Part shown: piece after piece, positions 11,359 to 25,908 of the stretch | Layout of the letters: every line of letters starts with the position of its first letter | Position numbering within the stretch: position 1 is the stretch's first letter | Assembly (NCBI GenBank): GCA_026416295.1 | Contig: JAOAFL010000138.1 | Coordinates: 1 to 55,405, forward strand | Direction of reading: 5' to 3' | Length of the DNA stretch: 55,405 nt | Source of the DNA: Burkholderiales bacterium | GTDB taxonomy: Bacteria; Pseudomonadota; Gammaproteobacteria; Burkholderiales; SG8-39 | Notes under the pieces: generated by a model | The model's input: the letters and a program-made list of their open reading frames with translations, nothing else | What the model was told of the DNA's origin: nothing | The model's database searches: none | Translations under genes and position numbers: made by a program

Positions 11359-12701
11359 GGGGCCGGGGCCGGGGCGGCGGCCGCCTTGCGCGCGCGTCGG
11401 CGCCGGCGGCGACGCTTCGCGGGCGCGGGCGCCGGCGCGAGCATCGCGCGGCGCGTCTCGGCGTCGGCGCTCTGGAACGCGCGCCACCAGTTCTCCAGTT
11501 CCGCCGGCACTTCGCCGCTCGCCGCGCGCAACGCGAGAAAGTCGTACCCCATGCGAAAGCGCGGCGCCTCGAGCAGGCGCAGCGGCCGGCTGCCGGTGCG
11601 CTGCTCGAAGCGCGGCTGCATCGCCCAGATCTCGCGCATCGTCGCGGTGAAACGCCGCGGGATCGCCAGCTTCTCGCATTGCGTGTCGAGCACCTCGTCC
11701 ATCGCCGCCGCGAGCGCCGGAATCGGCCGCAGCCCCGCGCGCTCGCGCGCCCGCCAGGCCGCGAGCACCTGATGCCAGAGCAGCGCGGCGAACAGAAACG
11801 CCGGCGACACCGGGCGCCCGGTCTGCACGCGCTCGTCGGTCTGCGCGAGCGCGAGCGTCACGAACCGCTCGCCGAGCGGCTGCTCGAGGATGACGTCAAG
11901 GAGCGGCAGCAGCCCGTGCGACAGGCCCTCGTCGCGCAGCTGCCGCAGGCAGGCGCTCGCGTGCCCCGAAAGGAGCAGCTTCAGCATCTCCTCGAACAGG
12001 CGCGCCGCCGGCACGTGCTCAAGGAGCGGCGCCAAGCGCCGGATCGGCGCGCGCGTCGCCGGGTCGATCGTCAGGCCGAGCTTCGCCGCAAGGCGCACCG
12101 CGCGCAGCATCCGCACCGGATCCTCGCGGTAGCGTGCCTCCGGATCGCCGATCATGCGCAGCACCCGCTTTTTCAGGTCGGCGAGGCCGCCGTGGGAATC
12201 GACCACCTCCTCGGTCGCCGGGTCGTAATAGAGCGCGTTGACGGTGAAGTCGCGCCGCCGCGCGTCCTCTTCCTGCGTGCCGAAGACGTTGTCGCGCAGC
12301 ACGCGCCCGTGCTCGTCGCGGACCAGGCCGTCGTCGTCGCCCTGCGCGTCGCCGTTCGCGATGCCGCGGAAGGTCGACACTTCGACCGTCTCGCCGCCGA
12401 CGATCACGTGCACCAGGCGGAAGCGCCGGCCGATCAGCAGCGCGCGGCGAAAGAGGGGTTTCACCTGCTCGGGGCGCGCGTCGGTCGCCACGTCGAAGTC
12501 CTTCGGCGCGATGCCGAGCAGCAGGTCGCGCACCGCACCGCCGACGATGTAGGCGGCGTAGCCGTGCGCGGCGAGCACCTCGCAGACCTTGCGCGCGGCC
12601 GGGCTGATGCGTTCGCGGGCGATGCCGTGGCGCGCACGCGGCACGCGCGCGGGCACCGCCTCGTCCAGGCCGAGCACGCGCCGGATAAAGCGCCGGATCA
12701 T
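11355..12701 (-). CDS. pcnB: poly(A) polymerase I
   Basis: 448 residues. It adds 3' poly(A) tails that mark RNAs for decay. The nucleotidyltransferase signature YIVGGAVRDLLLG followed by PKDFDVATDA supplies the catalytic Asp pair; the RRDFTVNALYYD and RYREDPVRMLRAVR regions follow. The C-terminal end is a lysine/arginine-rich tail (KRRRRRRRARK), as in proteobacterial PcnB. Cognate tRNA nucleotidyltransferase is the alternative, but the length and basic tail favour PcnB. A GATAAT box on the minus strand at 12713–12718, only 11 bases from the ATG, suggests an internal promoter. Confidence 0.94.
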   Translation of the reverse strand: MIRRFIRRVLGLDEAVPARVPRARHGIARERISPAARKVCEVLAAHGYAAYIVGGAVRDLLLGIAPKDFDVATDARPEQVKPLFRRALLIGRRFRLVHVIVGGETVEVSTFRGIANGDAQGDDDGLVRDEHGRVLRDNVFGTQEEDARRRDFTVNALYYDPATEEVVDSHGGLADLKKRVLRMIGDPEARYREDPVRMLRAVRLAAKLGLTIDPATRAPIRRLAPLLEHVPAARLFEEMLKLLLSGHASACLRQLRDEGLSHGLLPLLDVILEQPLGERFVTLALAQTDERVQTGRPVSPAFLFAALLWHQVLAAWRARERAGLRPIPALAAAMDEVLDTQCEKLAIPRRFTATMREIWAMQPRFEQRTGSRPLRLLEAPRFRMGYDFLALRAASGEVPAELENWWRAFQSADAETRRAMLAPAPAPAKRRRRRRRARKAAAAPAPAP

Positions 12702-13376: not shown

Positions 13377-13972
13377 GCGAGCGTCCTGAGCGCCTCGCGC
13401 ACGAGCGCGAGCGTGAGCGGCCGCTGCCGTTCGAGCGCGGTGCGGTCGAGCCGTTCCATCAGCGCGACGAGCGTCGGCAGGTCGCGGCGCGCGTGCGCGA
13501 GCAGGTAGCGCACCACCTCGTCGCCGACGCGAAGGCCGCGGCGCGCGCCCTCGGCCCGCAGGTACGCCGCGCGCTGCTCGTCGTCGAGCGGCTTCACTTC
13601 GTACACGAGCCCCCAGGCGAGGCGGCTGCGCACGTCGGCGCGCAGCGGAAGTTGCGCGGGCGGCGCGGCGCCGGCGGCGAGCACCGTGCCGCCCTCGGCG
13701 CGCGCGGCGTCGATCGCGCCGAGCAGCGCGATCTGCGCCGGCTCGTCGAGCGTCTCGACGTCGTCGGCGACCGCGCGCGCCGCGCGCGCGCAGGCGCGCA
13801 GCAGGTGCGTGCGGCCGCTGCCGGGCGCGCCCCAGAGGTAGAGCACGCTCTCGGCGAGACGGCCCTCGAGGAGCGCGCGCAGCCGCGCGAGCAGTTCGGC
13901 GTTCGCGCCCGGCACGAAGTTCTCGAGCGTCGGCTCGCCCGGCGGCGACAGCGGAAGCGCGAGCTGGCGCAT
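13373..13972 (-). CDS. hda: DnaA regulatory inactivator Hda
   Basis: 199 residues, DnaA-like AAA+ protein without the DNA-binding domain. The N-terminal QLALPL hexapeptide is the expected clamp-binding motif, through which Hda sits on the replication sliding clamp and drives ATP hydrolysis by DnaA. The P-loop is GAPGSGRTHLL, and arginine-rich RSRLAWGLVYEV plus RRDLPTLVALMERLD complete the fold. Start at 13972 is chosen because the clamp motif must be at the N-terminus; an in-frame ATG at 14017 would bury it. First gene of a six-gene minus-strand operon and divergent from purM. Confidence 0.93.
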   Translation of the reverse strand: MRQLALPLSPPGEPTLENFVPGANAELLARLRALLEGRLAESVLYLWGAPGSGRTHLLRACARAARAVADDVETLDEPAQIALLGAIDAARAEGGTVLAAGAAPPAQLPLRADVRSRLAWGLVYEVKPLDDEQRAAYLRAEGARRGLRVGDEVVRYLLAHARRDLPTLVALMERLDRTALERQRPLTLALVREALRTLA

Positions 13973-19300: not shown

Positions 19301-19813
19301 TGGATCGCGGGGGTCGCCGCGTCGCTGCGCGTCCAGATGACGCGCCGCGGGCGCATGGCCTCGGTCGTGCTCGAGGACGGCACCGGACAGGTCGAGGTGA
19401 GCGTGTTCGGCGAGCTGTTCGAGCAGCACCGCGAGCGGCTGAAGGAGGATGCGCTGCTCGTCGTCGCCGGCCGCGTGCAGCGCGACGAGTTCGCCGGCGG
19501 CGTACGCGTGATCGCCGAGGAGCTCTACGACCTTGCGACGCTGCGCGAGCGGTTCGGTGCGCGGCTGCGCATCGCGCTCGACGGCGCGGCGCGCGCGCCG
19601 AGCGTCGCCGCGCGGCTGCGCGAGGCGCTCGCGCCGTATCGCGCCCCGGGCGGCTGCGCGGTGCTCGTGCGCTACGAAAACGGCGCGGCCCGCTGCGAGC
19701 TCGCGCTCGGCGACGCCTGGCGCGTGCGACCGGAGGCGCGCCTCATCGAAGAGCTTTCGTCGTGGCTTGCGCCGGAGAACGTCGCGCTCGAGTACGCGCC
19801 CGCCACGCGCTGA
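16364..19813 (+). CDS. dnaE: DNA polymerase III alpha subunit
   Basis: 1149 residues, full DnaE length. Order: PHP domain (HLRLHSEYSITDSVVRI, GMVKFY), polymerase core with PGRGSGAGSLVAY and the catalytic Asp pair in MPDFDIDFCQ, the NVGMHAGGVLI and GYGFNKSHAAAYALLAYQTAYMK segments, helix-hairpin-helix, OB fold (GRMASVVLEDGTGQVEVSVF) and C-terminal tau-binding region. It replicates the chromosome. A run of 11 C (16830–16840) encodes a Pro stretch near residue 157 and stays in frame. No SD is visible; a TAGAAT box lies 9 bases before the ATG. The 3' end overlaps the convergent AllH-like gene by 71 bases. Confidence 0.98.
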   Translation: MPAPRFVHLRLHSEYSITDSVVRIEAAVARAAADGMAALALTDSANLFGMVKFYGAARAAGVKPIVGADCWLQNDADREKPYRLLLLCASQPGYRRLCELLTRAWLKNAYRGRGEIAAAWFEELGTDGLIALSGFAAGDVGHALAAGQEAAAERLAPPPAQRFPDRYYLEVQRAGAPQGEALVARTLALAARTGLPVVATHPVQFLAPEDFKAHEARVCIAHGYALGDQRRPRLFTPEQYFKTQQEMARLFADVPQALENAVEIARRCNLAIELGRNRLPEFPTPGGVGVERYLREQAERGLEARLARLYPDAARRGAEAPRYRARLEFELATIVAMGFAGYFLIVADFIGWARANGVPVGPGRGSGAGSLVAYALGITDLDPLRYDLLFERFLNPERVSMPDFDIDFCQAGRDRVIEYVRKKYGEQSVAQIATFGTMAARAVVRDVGRVLDLGYSFCDQIAKLVPFQPGRAITLAEAREMEPLLAERERNEEEVRDLLALAEKLEGLVRNVGMHAGGVLIAPGRLTDFCPLYAAEGGAQAISQFDKDDVEKIGLVKFDFLGLATLTILDRAQRHVRRLGQPEFALEAIPLDDAETYRLLASGNTTAVFQLESRGMRDLLKRARPDRFEDVIALVALYRPGPMDLIPDFIRRKHGEERVEYLDPRLEPILAPTYGIMVYQEQVMQIAQAIAGYTLGGADLLRRAMGKKNQQEMDAQRDTFVAGAERNGMPRAKAMQLFDLMAKFAGYGFNKSHAAAYALLAYQTAYMKRHHAAAFMAANLSAVMDDTDKVRQFYDDALANGLRVLPPDINASEYEFVPVDAATIRYGLGAVRGTGEAAVQAILAARRAGPFVDLYDFCRRVDKRIVNRRAIEALVRAGAFDALDSNRASLLASVGRALEAAERDARAAGQASLFGEPEGPQAGRLALVEAPAWSLERTLAEEKAALGFCLSAHPFSVHARALAGFPRTPLGRLATAERAWIAGVAASLRVQMTRRGRMASVVLEDGTGQVEVSVFGELFEQHRERLKEDALLVVAGRVQRDEFAGGVRVIAEELYDLATLRERFGARLRIALDGAARAPSVAARLREALAPYRAPGGCAVLVRYENGAARCELALGDAWRVRPEARLIEELSSWLAPENVALEYAPATR

Positions 19814-20588
19814 GGGCAAGGAGCGCGCCCGCGAGCGCGTCGCGCCCCGAGGTGTGACCGACGCGCGCGAGCGCGGCGAGCGCGCGCCCTAGCCCTCGGC
19901 CGCCGTCGAGGATCGCCGCGAGCGCCGCATGCAGCGCCTCGTGCCCTGCGCCTTGCGCGGCGCACGCGAGGTGCGCGCGGCTGATGCGGCTCGTGCCGGC
20001 GCGCGCGGCGGCGAGCACCGGCCGTGCGAGGCGACGCGCGAGCGCGCGCTCGCCGAGCGCGCAAAGCGCGACGAGCGCGCCGCCGAGCAGGTCGTCGCCG
20101 GCCGGCGTCAGCCCGTCGCCCCGGCCGACCACGCCGGCGACCGCCGGCGGAAGCGGCCCGCGGCCGCCCGCCTGCAGCCACGCCTTGAGCGCCGCGGCGG
20201 CCTCGGGAAACGGCGGCGCGATCCGGGGCAGGCGCAGGCGCGCGCGGCGCGCCAGCGGTGGCGGCGGCGGCGTCCAGGTGCTCGCGCCCGCGAGCGCGAG
20301 CGCAAGCCCGCCGGAAAATCGCACGGTGCCGCGCCCGCAGGCGACGCGCTCGCCCGGCTCGGGCAGCGCCTTTCCGAGGCGCGCGATCAGGTTGAGCGGG
20401 CCGCGACCGATCGCCGGCGAGCCGATACAGGCGAGCCCGCCGCCGGTCGCCACATAGACGCTGCGCGCAAAGCGCGCGATCACGCGGCCGCGGCGGCCGG
20501 GCGCGAGCGCGCGGCGCGCCGCGCGCCCGAGCGCCTCAGTCCGGAAAGATCTGCGTGCCGCGGGCGCCTTCGAACGCCGCGAGCGCAT
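19743..20588 (-). CDS. DUF2877 protein, AllH-like subunit of oxamate carbamoyltransferase
   Basis: 281 residues as drawn. The family signature VGRGDGLTPAGDDLLGGAL lies mid-protein, with the N-terminal YVATGGGLACIG..GPLNLI strand and TSRISRAHLACAAQG region. DUF2877 proteins include AllH (YlbF), which together with AllF and AllG forms oxamate carbamoyltransferase in allantoin breakdown. Here it follows carbamate kinase on the minus strand with a 53-base overlap; a GTG at 20483 is an alternative start but would cut 35 residues near the domain edge. The C-terminal end overlaps dnaE by 71 bases and looks low-complexity. The role rests on family and context. Confidence 0.78.
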   Translation of the reverse strand: MRSRRSKAPAARRSFRTEALGRAARRALAPGRRGRVIARFARSVYVATGGGLACIGSPAIGRGPLNLIARLGKALPEPGERVACGRGTVRFSGGLALALAGASTWTPPPPPLARRARLRLPRIAPPFPEAAAALKAWLQAGGRGPLPPAVAGVVGRGDGLTPAGDDLLGGALVALCALGERALARRLARPVLAAARAGTSRISRAHLACAAQGAGHEALHAALAAILDGGRGLGRALAALARVGHTSGRDALAGALLALSAWRARTRARRSPAQATTKALR

Positions 20589-21492
20589 CGTCGAGGTGGG
20601 CGATCACCGCGCGCTTGCCGCCGCGCGCGAGAAACCAGAGCGCCGCCTCCACCTTCGGCGCCATGCTTCCGGCGGCGAAATGGCCCTGCTTTTCGTACGC
20701 CGCGAGGGCCGACGCGCTCACGCGCGCGAGCGCGCGCGCACGGGGCTTGCCGTAGTCGAGCATCACGTTCGGCACCGCGGTGAGGATGAGGAGCGTCGCC
20801 GCGCCGAGCGCGTGCGCAAGGAGCGCGGAGGTGAGGTCCTTGTCGACCACCGCCGGCACGCCGGCGTAGGAGCCGTCGGCGCGCGCGACCATCGGGATGC
20901 CGCCGCCGCCCGCCGCGATCACCGCGACGCCCTGCGCGGCGAGCGCCGCGATCACGTCGAGGTCGAGGATGCGCTTCGGGCGCGGCGAGGCGACGACGTA
21001 GCGCCAGCCGCGGCCGGCGTCCTCGCGCAGATTCCAGCCGAGCGTGCGCCGCAGGTGTTCGGCCTCTTCGGCGGTGAAGAACGGCCCGATCGGTTTCGTG
21101 GGGCGCGCGAACGCCGGGTCGTCGGCGCTCACCGCGACGCGGGTGATCACGCAGGCGACGCGGCGCTCGACCTCGGCGCGCGCCAGTTCGTCCTCCAGGC
21201 CCTGCATCAGCAGGTGCCCGATGCCGCCCTGGCTGTGCGCGACGCAGACGTCGAGCCGCATCGGCGGGATGTGCTCGCGCGCATAGTACTGGCGCAGCAG
21301 GATCTTGCCGACCACCGGCCCGTTGCCGTGCGTGATCACGAGCTCGCCCGCACGCTCGACCAGCGGCCGCAGCGCCCGCGCCGCGCGCGCCGCCACCTCT
21401 TCCTGTTCCTCGGTCGTGCCCCGGATGTTTTCCGGGTGCGTCGCGTTGCCGCCGATCGCGATCACCAGGCGCTCGCTCGCGGCTTCGCTCAT
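20536..21492 (-). CDS. carbamate kinase
   Basis: 318 residues of amino-acid-kinase fold. It transfers phosphate from carbamoyl phosphate to ADP, gaining ATP. Motifs: VIAIGGNATHPEN, VITHGNGPVVGKILL, AHSQGGIGHLLMQGL, SPRPKRILDLDVI, VIAAGGGGIPMV and VDKDLTSALLAHALGA. In the all (ylb) cluster of E. coli the equivalent kinase acts on carbamoyl phosphate released by AllFGH. The start at 21492 is 21 bases from the divergent AllG-like start; a minus-strand TATTAT box (21499–21504) lies 6 bases before the ATG. The overlap with the AllH-like gene suggests coupling. Confidence 0.93.
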   Translation of the reverse strand: MSEAASERLVIAIGGNATHPENIRGTTEEQEEVAARAARALRPLVERAGELVITHGNGPVVGKILLRQYYAREHIPPMRLDVCVAHSQGGIGHLLMQGLEDELARAEVERRVACVITRVAVSADDPAFARPTKPIGPFFTAEEAEHLRRTLGWNLREDAGRGWRYVVASPRPKRILDLDVIAALAAQGVAVIAAGGGGIPMVARADGSYAGVPAVVDKDLTSALLAHALGAATLLILTAVPNVMLDYGKPRARALARVSASALAAYEKQGHFAAGSMAPKVEAALWFLARGGKRAVIAHLDDALAAFEGARGTQIFPD

Positions 21493-21513: not shown

Positions 21514-22944
21514 ATGCCCGCGTCTTCGCTGCTCGCGGCCCCCCCGCGGGTGCTCAACATCGGCCTGGAGGGTTTCGCCCGCGAACTGGCGGCGCGCGGC
21601 GTCGCCGTCGTGCAGGTCGACTGGCGGCCGCCGGCGGGAGGGCGGCGCGAGCTCGCGGCGCTGCTCGCTGCCCTCGGCCGGCACGAACGGCGCATCGCGC
21701 GCGCGAACGCCGAGGCGCTGCGGCGCATGTTCGCCGCCGTGCCGGTGCTCGTCGACGTCGTGCCCGCGGCGCAGGCGATCCCGGCGCTCAGAAGGCGGGT
21801 GGTGCTGCACGCCGGGCCGCCGATCGACTGGGCGCGCATGTGCGGGCCCCTGCGCGGCGCGATCGCCGGCGCGATCGTGTTCGAGGGCTGGGCGCCCGAC
21901 CTGCGCGCGGCGGCGCGCCTTGCGGCCTCCGGCGCGATCGAATTCCAGCCGAACCACCGTTTCGCCGCGGTCGGGCCGATGACCGGCGTCACCACCGGCT
22001 CGATGCCGGTGCTCGTGGTCGAGAACCGGGCGAAGGGTGCGCGCAACCGCGCCTACTGCACGATCAACGAAGGGCTGGGCAAAGTCCTGCGGTTCGGCGC
22101 GAACGACGCCTCGGTGCTCGAGCGGCTCGCCTGGCTGCGGGACGAATTCGGGCCGGCGCTCGGGGCGGCGCTGCGCGCAGGCGGCGGCCTGGAGCTCGCG
22201 CCGCTCGTTGCGCGCGGCCTCGCGATGGGCGACGAGATGCACCAGCGCAACGTCGCCTGTTCGGCGCTTTTCCTTCGCGCGCTCGCGCCGCGGCTCGCGA
22301 GCGCCGCGCGCGCGCCGCAGGCGGCCGCGCGCGCGCTCGCGTTCATCGCCGGAAACGAGCAGTTCTTCCTCAACGTCGGGATGGCGATGGCCAAGGCGAT
22401 CATGGATCCGGTCTGCGGCATCGAAGGCTGCAGCCTCGTCACCGCGATGTGTCGCAACGGCACCGAGTTCGCGATTCGCGTTTCGGCGACCGGCGAGGCA
22501 TGGTTCGTCGCGCCGGCCGAACGCCCGCAGGGGCTCTATTTCGCCGGTTACTCGGAGAAGGACGCCAACCCCGACATGGGCGATTCGGCGATCCTCGAGA
22601 CGGTCGGCCTCGGCGCTTTCGCGATGGCCGCATCGCCCGCCGTCGCCGGGTTCGTCGGCGCCGGCTCGGCGGCCGATGCGACGCGCTACACGCGCTCGAT
22701 GTCCGAAATCGCGATCGGCCGCAACGCGCGCTGGCCGATCCCGGCGCTCGACATGGCGGGCGTGCCGTGCGGGATCGACATCCGGCGGGTGATCGAGACC
22801 GGCATCGCGCCGGCGATCAACACCGGCATTGCGCACCGCGAGGCGGGCGTCGGCCAGGTGGGCGCAGGGATCGCGCGCGCGCCGCTCGCCTGCTTCGAGA
22901 AGGCGCTCGTCGCGTTCGCGCGCTCGCTCGGAGTGCGGCCCTGA
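21514..22944 (+). CDS. DUF1116 protein, AllG-like subunit of oxamate carbamoyltransferase
   Basis: 476 residues. Recognised as the YlbE/AllG (DUF1116) family by the N-terminal VLNIGLEGFARELAARGVAVVQVDWRPP, the GPMTGVTTGSMPVLVVENR segment, MGDEMHQRNVACSALF, and NTGIAHREAGVGQVGAGI near the C-terminus. With AllF and AllH it exchanges a carbamoyl group between oxalurate and phosphate. No ribosome site is seen; the GATAAT box ends 10 bases before the ATG. The stop overlaps the putative CTG start of the AllF-like gene. Confidence 0.85.
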   Translation: MPASSLLAAPPRVLNIGLEGFARELAARGVAVVQVDWRPPAGGRRELAALLAALGRHERRIARANAEALRRMFAAVPVLVDVVPAAQAIPALRRRVVLHAGPPIDWARMCGPLRGAIAGAIVFEGWAPDLRAAARLAASGAIEFQPNHRFAAVGPMTGVTTGSMPVLVVENRAKGARNRAYCTINEGLGKVLRFGANDASVLERLAWLRDEFGPALGAALRAGGGLELAPLVARGLAMGDEMHQRNVACSALFLRALAPRLASAARAPQAAARALAFIAGNEQFFLNVGMAMAKAIMDPVCGIEGCSLVTAMCRNGTEFAIRVSATGEAWFVAPAERPQGLYFAGYSEKDANPDMGDSAILETVGLGAFAMAASPAVAGFVGAGSAADATRYTRSMSEIAIGRNARWPIPALDMAGVPCGIDIRRVIETGIAPAINTGIAHREAGVGQVGAGIARAPLACFEKALVAFARSLGVRP

Positions 22945-24513
22945 GCGCGGTCGCGAACCTCGTCCGGCGCGGCTGGTACGCCGATTCGGTCGCGCTGATG
23001 CGCGCCGCGCGCGCGCTCGGCGCCCTGCCCGGCGTCGAGGCCGCCTCGCTCGTCATCGGCACGCCGTCGAACAAGGCGCAGCTGCGCGAGGCGGGACTGC
23101 TTGCCGCCTCGGGCGCCGACGCCCGCCCCGACGATCTCGTGATCGCGGTGCGCGCCCGCGACGCCCGCACCGCGAGCCGGGCGCTCGCCGAGGCCGAGCG
23201 GCTGCTCGTCGCGCAGGCGGCCCCTGCCGCGCCGGCGGGGGTTTCGCGCGCGCACGGCTTCGCCGCAGCGCGCGAGGCGCTGCCGGAGGCGAACCTCGCG
23301 CTCGTCTCGGTGCCGGGGGCTTTCGCCGCCGCCGAGGCGCGCCGGGCGCTCGAAGCCGGCATGCACGCGATGGTTTTTTCCGACAACGTGCCGCTCGAGG
23401 AGGAGGTGGCGCTCAAGCGGCTTGCGCGCCGCCGAGGGCTGTTGCTGATGGGGCCGGACTGCGGCAGCGCGATCGTCGGCGGTGCGCCGCTCGGCTTCGC
23501 GAACGCGGTGCCGCGCGGCGACGTCGGCATCGTGTCCGCTTCCGGCACCGGACTGCAGGAGGTGAGCACGCTGCTTGCGCGCGCGGGCCGCGGCGTGTCG
23601 CACGCGATCGGCGTGGGCGGGCGTGACCTGAGCGAGGCGGTCGGGGGGCTCACCACGTTCGCGGCGCTCGAGGCGCTGGAGGCCGATCGCGCGACACGCC
23701 ACGTGGTGGTGATCTCGAAGCCGCCGGCGCCCGCGGTCGCGCGCAGGCTGCTCGCGCGCATCGGGCGCAGCCGCAAGCGCGCGACGCTCTGCCTGCTCGG
23801 CGCGCGCGCTGCGGCTTCCGCGCAACGCCGAGTTCGCGCCGACGTTGCTCGAGGCGGCCGAACGCGTCGCCGGCCGCAGCCTGCGAAGCGATGCGATCGA
23901 TCCGCCTGCGGTGCGGGGCGGCGCGATCCGGGGCCTATTCTGCGGCGGGACGCTTTGCGCCGAAGCGCAGCTCGTGCTGCTGCGGGCGGGGCTCGCGGTG
24001 CGATCGAACGTGCCGGTGCCGGGCGCACGGCGAGCCGCGCGCGACGGCAGCGGACACCTTCTCCTCGACCTCGGCGAGGACGCCTACACGCGCGGACGGC
24101 CGCATCCGATGATCGAGCCCGAACTGCGGGCGCCGCGCATCGTCGAGGCGCTCGCCGATCCGCGCGTCGCGGTGCTGCTGCTCGACGTCGTGATCGGCTA
24201 CGGGGCGCACCCGGACCCGGCCGGCGCGGTGGCGGAGGCGCTCGCGCGCGCGCGCCGGCGCCGCGCGTTCGTCGTCGCCTCGGTCACCGGCACCGACGCC
24301 GACCCGCAAGGCTACGCCCGGCAGGTGGCGCGACTGCGCGAGGCCGGCGTGCGGGTCGCCGCCTCCAACGCCGAGGCGGCCGCGCTCGCCGCCGCTTGCG
24401 TCGGTGCGGGCGCACGCGCCGCCGTCAGCCGCGCAGAATCGCCTGCGCCCGACGCAGCCAGGCGTTCTGCAGCCGCTCGCCCGGATCGGCGCGGCGCTTC
24501 TCGGCGAGGATGA
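22941..24513 (+). pseudogene. FdrA/AllF-like subunit of oxamate carbamoyltransferase, frameshifted
   Basis: Two frames together give about 524 residues of FdrA-type sequence, related to succinyl-CoA synthetase alpha. The first (from 22941) has WYADSVALMR, GPDCGSAIVGGAPLGFANAVPRG and VSASGTGLQEVSTLLARAG. The second runs from about 23803 with LRLPRNAEFAPTLLEAAERVAG, GLFCGGTLCAEAQLVLL and LLDVVIGYGAHPDPAGA. The break lies in the alternating GC tract 23802–23810; restoring one lost GC pair rejoins the frames perfectly. No ATG, GTG or TTG begins the gene; the CTG at 22941 overlapping the AllG-like stop (CTGA) is the best start. It may be an inactivated gene, a slippage-switched gene or a sequencing error. 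The 3' end overlaps the convergent FAD-protein gene by about 89 bases. Confidence 0.72.
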
Positions 24514-25411
24514 GCGGCAGCATCGGATAGCAGCGTTCGAGTTGCGCGCGCGAGACGTCGCGCAGGTCGCGCACCGGGAACGACCCGCCGCAATCGAGCG
24601 CGAGCGCGAGCAGCGCGCGCCGGACTTCGGCGGCGAACACCGCCGCGCAGAGCGAGCGGCGCACGCGGAAACCGATCGTCACCGCGGCCCACGCGCGGCT
24701 CGCCCAGCGAAGACGCGTGTCGGATTCAGGCAGCGTGCGCCGCACCGAGAAGCGATCGAGGGCGATGCGGCGCTCGGCGGCGAGCGCGCGAACGCCGGCG
24801 ACGAAGCGCTCGAGCGACTCGGGCGGCGCGAGCAGCTCCAGGCGGCTCGCCTCGGGGACCGCGCCGGCTTCGGCCCCGGCGCCGAGCTCGAGCGGCGCGC
24901 ACCGTGCGCTGGCCGAAGCGGCGAGCGAGCGCAGGTCGAGCGTCACGCTGTAGAGGAAGCCGAAGATCCCCTGGCCGCCGACGGCGAGCGCGAACAGCTC
25001 GGGGTGCGACTGGCGGTCGGCGCGGCGCAGCTCGCCGTCGGCGGTGACGAGCGTGACGGCGAGCAGATGGCGCGAAAGCGGCGCACCGTCCGGTCCGGCG
25101 CCGTTCACGTGCACGCTCTCGGCGATCGTGTCGGCGCCGACGCCGTCGGCGAGCGCGGAAAGGCTGAACGGGGCGAGCGCCGGATGAGCGGCGAACGCCG
25201 CCCAGCGCGCGGCCGCCTGCACCTCGACGCGGCCGCGCTCGCGATCGACGGCGAGCACGCGATCGAGCGCCGAGCCGTCGAGCGTGAGCGGCGCGCTGCG
25301 CGCCTGACGAAACGCGCGCCGCAGCTCGTCGGCCGAGCGAACCGCGACCGTGGTCTTGCGCGGCGCGACGCCCGGGTCCCAGGGACATGGGAGGCTGAAT
25401 TCGACGTACAT
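24425..25411 (-). CDS. FAD-linked oxidase-like protein, divergent
   Basis: 328 residues. The middle resembles an FAD_binding_4 (PCMH) domain: DGVGADTIAESVHVNGAG, a strand with TADGELRRADRQSHPELFALAVGGQGIFGFLYSVTLDL. The N-terminal third is reduced and no covalent-FAD His is visible. The C-terminal third is arginine-rich and matches nothing I know. ATG at 25411 is the first in-frame Met before clear coding. It may be a relative of glycolate oxidase or lactone oxidases with altered flavin binding. A link to the oxamate cluster, which it meets tail to tail, is unsupported. Confidence 0.6.
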   Translation of the reverse strand: MYVEFSLPCPWDPGVAPRKTTVAVRSADELRRAFRQARSAPLTLDGSALDRVLAVDRERGRVEVQAAARWAAFAAHPALAPFSLSALADGVGADTIAESVHVNGAGPDGAPLSRHLLAVTLVTADGELRRADRQSHPELFALAVGGQGIFGFLYSVTLDLRSLAASASARCAPLELGAGAEAGAVPEASRLELLAPPESLERFVAGVRALAAERRIALDRFSVRRTLPESDTRLRWASRAWAAVTIGFRVRRSLCAAVFAAEVRRALLALALDCGGSFPVRDLRDVSRAQLERCYPMLPLILAEKRRADPGERLQNAWLRRAQAILRG

Positions 25412-25509
25412 GGCGGCGCGGCTCGAGAAACGAAGGCGCGCGCCATTCTCGGCGGGCGCGCGCGCCGCGCAAGCAGCGCGGCGCAGGTGGCTTCGGGCGA
25501 TACGCCCGG

Positions 25510-25797
25510 TCACGCCGTCGGCAACCAGTCGAAGCTCGCGTATTCGCGCGCGGCCTCGCCCTCGGCGGCGGATTCGCGCAGCTCGTCGACGCGCGCCGCG
25601 GGCGGACCGCGCCGCGCCCAGGCGACGAGCGACTCGACCGCCTCCGGAGCGCCCTGAACGACCGCCTCGACGCTTCCGTCGCGGCGGTTGCGCACCCACC
25701 CGGTGCAGCCGCGGGCGAGCGCCTCGCGCTGCATCGCCTGGCGAAAGCCGACGCCTTGGACGCGGCCGCGCAGGACGAGGTGTCGCGTCACGGTCAT
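25510..25797 (-). CDS. acyP: acylphosphatase
   Basis: 95 residues, the usual length. The catalytic Arg is in [16 protein letters not shown] and the catalytic Asn in [17 protein letters not shown]. It hydrolyses acyl phosphates such as carbamoyl phosphate and acetyl phosphate in the cytoplasm. The 98 bases between its stop and the start of the FAD-protein gene hold nothing recognisable. Divergent from the pilin-like gene. Confidence 0.95.
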
Positions 25798-25908
25798 GAC
25801 GCGATTTTGCCTTCGGCGCGGCGCCCTCGGCAGGGCGTCCGGCTGACCGTTGCCGGAGGCCGTGATAAGCTCGCGCCAAGAAGAACCACAATCGACCCGG
25901 GGGATGAG

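Follow-up and report, generated by a model that had tools for sequence, protein, structure and literature searches.

A probable recent inactivation of AllF by a frame break between its two domains in an AllFGH–carbamate kinase gene set of a Burkholderiales bacterium

In Escherichia coli, AllF, AllG, and AllH are reported to constitute the oxamic transcarbamylase (PMC11326118). According to Table 1 of the same paper, the deletion of allF stops oxamate formation. The paper also describes a triple mutant in which 16% of the oxamate level was restored by AllG and AllH together. Changes in AllF are also reported to shift the allantoin flux in this organism (PMC8550087; PMC11326118). Furthermore, an fdrA D296Y variant, coming from a coculture, has been reported to favour oxamate. 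Sets lacking the known upstream purine genes have been reported in nitrifier genomes (PMC12625717).

The window analysed in the present work, i.e., the whole stretch of 55,405 nucleotides, is contig 18 of a draft genome of 2.87 Mb, which consists of 140 contigs and is 94% complete. Between positions 19743 and 24513, it harbors a four-gene set predicted to serve in the use of a nitrogen-rich breakdown product, of which the minus strand carries AllH and a carbamate kinase, and the plus strand AllG and AllF (Table 1). As in the E. coli system (AllFGH with AllK), the genes for AllG, AllH, and the kinase adjoin that for AllF; all three are open, as the initial annotation of this DNA had stated, and have matches to their families, and on the basis of these neighbours the AllF-like gene can be assigned to the set. 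Moreover, the same FdrA profile to which E. coli AllF (FdrA) belongs matches both halves of the gene, and the best PDB match of the N-terminal half is the solved FdrA structure 3dmy. The locus differs from that of E. coli in its organization, since the four genes of the latter are described as one operon (PMC11326118), whereas here two divergent pairs are found, the kinase with AllH and AllG with AllF. It differs also in AllF itself, the frame of which is broken in the middle of the gene; while the E. coli changes (the fdrA deletions and D296Y) are laboratory deletions or a missense change, this one would be a natural frameshift. Like the nitrifier sets reported in PMC12625717, the set occurs in a genome with neither an allantoinase nor an AllD above the cut-off: the respective models retrieved matches of 201 bits (cut-off 358) and 170 bits (cut-off 496) only. 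The AllF gene is the sole strong AllF match in the assembly; a second, weak one shares 33% identity over residues 84–235 (E = 1.3e-11). The last 89 bases of the C-terminal part of AllF overlap a convergent ORF (24425–25891).

Table 1. Position of the features of the AllFGH–carbamate kinase set and of the AllF frame break in the window.
Feature	Coordinates	Strand	Remarks
AllH (DUF2877)	19743..20588	-	Open, 281 aa
Carbamate kinase (AllK-like)	20536..21492	-	Open, 318 aa; divergent from AllG
AllG (DUF1116)	21514..22944	+	Open, 476 aa; PF06545 match, 2.5e-87
GGAG, Shine-Dalgarno-like	22930..22933	+	7 bases 5' of CTG; recognised by eye
AllF (FdrA) N-terminal part, CoA_binding domain	22941..23813	+	Frame 0; starts with CTG; profile and Pfam matches
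Alternating GC run, ten bases (five units)	23800..23809	+	From the sequence
Interval possible for the AllF frame break, net minus two	23801..23822	+	Best summed score after 23813
Out-of-frame continuation of AllF frame 0	23814..24530	+	About 238 missense residues, then first stop
AllF C-terminal part, Ligase_CoA domain	23815..24513	+	Frame 1; profile and Pfam matches

The frameshift that the initial annotation had proposed for the AllF-like gene is truly present in the given sequence. When the gene was compared with the NCBIfam FdrA profile (555 positions), frame 0 from 22941 covered profile positions 4–291 with 302 bits, and frame 1 from about 23815 covered positions 298–495 with 164 bits, each half alone scoring below the curated cut-off of 433 bits. 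The Pfam domains CoA_binding and Ligase_CoA were found in the first and in the second half, respectively, and in different frames. A codon model that makes no use of homology called the switch at 23800, after which frame 0 runs on without a stop for another 728 bases. The 38 relative loci used for comparison (L003–L040, of which L011 and L032, equal in length, are apparently one contig) all have the matches flanking the junction in one frame. The gene thus has a disrupted frame where its relatives share a single one, as expected of a pseudogene; the conservation of the break that would mark a programmed frameshift was observed in none of the 38 loci. Compared to the two closest homologues, those of G001 (73% identical) and G007 (72%), the net change at the break is minus two bases. 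The locus L039 (UBA6904) was considered as a second broken AllF and discarded, its frame changes sitting at runs of N.

The break had been attributed to a two-base contraction by slippage in an alternating GC tract, placed at 23802–23810. The tract does exist, its actual span being 23800–23809, and the net loss of two bases agrees with the proposal; slippage itself is not established, and the best score for the break falls after the run. The position was scored with seven relatives of similar spacing, picked by us, considering only the net minus two form. The summed score has a plateau from 23801 to 23816 and reaches its top (452) just past the GC run, the placements within the run scoring barely lower (419–449). 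Taken one by one, the relatives place the break at 23804–23807 (L047, L048, and L051), at 23813 (L041 and L042), or at 23819–23822 (L045 and L046). Since the position is resolved no finer than about 23801–23822, slippage in the GC run is a possible rather than an established cause. It is mildly favoured by the proximity of the break to a run, because only 4.1% of the AllF positions fall within five bases of a run of at least 10 bases. The run is an ordinary one here, given that 44 runs with a length of at least 10 bases occur in the window. AllF contains two longer GC runs (23006–23016 and 24243–24255), which are free of breaks, and neither of the two closest homologues has an uninterrupted GC run of ten bases at the site.

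The explanation that we consider probable is a recent inactivation of AllF by one net two-base loss in the inter-domain linker, within the AllFGH–carbamate kinase set. According to this model, the gene would code for the AllF subunit of a predicted AllFGH oxamic transcarbamylase accompanied by a carbamate kinase; the loss would hit the linker between CoA_binding and Ligase_CoA, and translation would proceed through the first domain and continue with about 238 wrong residues. This, in turn, would imply that the Ligase_CoA domain is missing and that the enzyme is left without AllF, with AllG, AllH, and the kinase still open. We infer that the living cells carry the break, that its origin is recent, and that the activity is lost or strongly reduced by it. 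Some activity may nevertheless persist without AllF, and the loss may not be total, in view of the partial restoration of oxamate by AllG and AllH in the E. coli triple mutant. A fresh inactivation was one of the three options of the initial annotation, and it represents the best reading in light of the rarity of such breaks, of the two halves being consecutive on the FdrA profile, and of the conservation of the C-terminal half.

This last half has no inner stop, a GC3 of 0.85–0.89 (versus 0.93 in the N-terminal half), and no changes at 33 otherwise invariant columns (14 taxa). Having kept its coding character, it suggests either that the break is recent or that the sequence is wrong. The N-terminal half has private changes at 5 of 81 otherwise invariant columns, the highest value among 16 taxa. 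The corresponding values are 7 of 156 for AllG (tied highest of 15 taxa), 5 of 165 for the carbamate kinase (second of 10 taxa), and 1 of 37 for AllH. Since AllG and the kinase are high as well as the N-terminal half of AllF, the whole lineage appears to be fast, and the private changes in the AllF halves, AllG, AllH, and the kinase gave no signal of a relaxed selection specific to AllF.

An error in the assembly or in the consensus, according to which the AllF of the organism is intact and a GC-rich stretch was recorded two bases too short, is the alternative to be taken most seriously, even if we judge it rather unlikely. It would be in agreement with the draft state of the genome and with both AllF halves looking conserved, as in an intact gene. 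However, the assembly contains few such breaks. We surveyed 41 stretches of the same genome, the window included, for a total of 648 kb, 544 coding segments, and 299 same-strand frame switches, with the codon model trained on the first 21 stretches (the window among them); a switch was flagged when the first frame stayed open past it for more than 60 bases in a 318 kb part and 45 bases in the rest. Five of the 299 switches passed these limits, and only two, AllF and one near position 11557 of contig C37, are followed by more than 250 bases of open first frame. Among the 137 same-strand switches of the 318 kb part, to which the window belongs, AllF alone exceeds 100 bases. The flags in L074, L076, and L102, where the first frame is open for 72, 61, and 47 bases, respectively, look like ordinary overlaps between genes. 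Extrapolating from two breaks in 648 kb, about nine would be expected per genome, a rate compatible with a normal load of broken genes or with rare errors; a generally faulty assembly would not agree with it, only one other such switch having been found in the 648 kb. The longer GC runs of the same gene, which are unbroken, also argue against an error, and an error would leave the altered start codon of AllF (see below) unexplained, though a CTG may be harmless. The switch near 11557 (L100) lies in a nucleotidyltransferase-like gene, split over two frames.

It is very unlikely that AllF works despite the break, either by recoding at the junction or as two chains split at the linker. The break does fall between the two Pfam domains, the relatives differ in length at the linker, and a TTG at 23845 opens an ORF in the second frame; however, the break is absent from the relative loci and hence not conserved, frame 0 has no stop near the junction, so that a restart after termination is not expected, and no GGAG-like motif was recognised by eye directly before that TTG. 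The remaining option of the initial annotation, a reversible on/off switch by slippage in the GC run (phase variation), found no support, and we regard it as equally improbable: even if the break coincides with an alternating run or lies no more than a few bases from it, this run has only five units and is just one of the many of at least 10 bases in the window, the two closest homologues are devoid of an uninterrupted run of that length, and AllF is a metabolic gene. That the species toggles oxalurate use through the length of the GC run, with a metabolic contingency gene turned off in the sequenced cell, is more improbable still.

Concerning the phylogenetic distribution of the set, AllF was retrieved from 38 and AllG from 39 out of 121 genomes (E up to 1e-30, own genome counted), which reveals a patchy occurrence. 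Of the 11 loci holding both the kinase and AllG, 10 show the two in divergent orientation, the exception being an alphaproteobacterial locus (L037). Seven more distant loci (L018, L021, L024, L025, L027, L029, and L030) have the kinase and AllF on one strand, which points to another arrangement of the set. In G001, which belongs to the same genus, AllH (L041:7624–7899) matches residues 172–259 only and does so in two frames, with about 155 residues missing as judged by eye; this suggests that the set is damaged elsewhere in the genus too. As in the locus studied here, one subunit is broken, and AllG and the kinase are open; the G001 damage differs in affecting AllH and in combining a large internal loss with a frame change. 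The AllF of G001 runs off the contig end, and this genome carries a second, divergent AllF and AllG. If the inactivation of AllF is real, it would add an example of an oxamic transcarbamylase set in which one subunit is lost and the neighbouring genes remain open, and this in a genus with damage to the AllH of another member. As a caution, AllFGH capacity calls from draft genomes may count a broken set as present.

A feature that had escaped the initial annotation is the beginning of AllF, which has no ATG, GTG, or TTG: a CTG stands at the start position and shares bases with the AllG stop (CTGA), and none of the three standard codons occurs in the AllF frame within 22860–22997. In L003, a GGAG at equal spacing precedes the ATG of AllF. 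Of 38 loci submitted to a reading of the AllF start, 36 include it (L040 and L055 are without the N-terminal end), and all 36 have a standard start within about five codons of the equivalent place. In the range of -60 to +30 around the upstream stop, a standard codon is lacking at 12 of the 137 same-strand junctions. Six of these have a standard start just outside this range, and among the other six, L064, L069, and L075 have one further downstream according to our reading, so that AllF, L058, and L061 are left.

In L058 (position 6601, contig C2 of the same genome), a DUF4147 gene, which we take to be glycerate-2-kinase-like, starts with CTG, likewise in a CTGA overlap. Sixteen relatives had a match, and the CTG is common to all nine relatives of the genus that were examined (L106–L114), i.e., to 10 out of 10 genomes when its own is included. 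In eight of the nine, no standard codon lies from -30 to +15 of the CTG; the ninth has a TTG at +15. The comparison of these sequences indicates a conserved non-standard start codon in the glycerate-2-kinase-like gene, and CTG plausibly works as a start in this genus. For this reason, the CTG was rejected as an independent proof of AllF decay, and as a sign of it we consider it weak evidence. As for L061, a gene that looks ligase-like by eye lies on the minus strand, at about position 13930 of the reverse complement; it has no standard start near its apparent beginning, and the candidates are an ATT or a later TTG.
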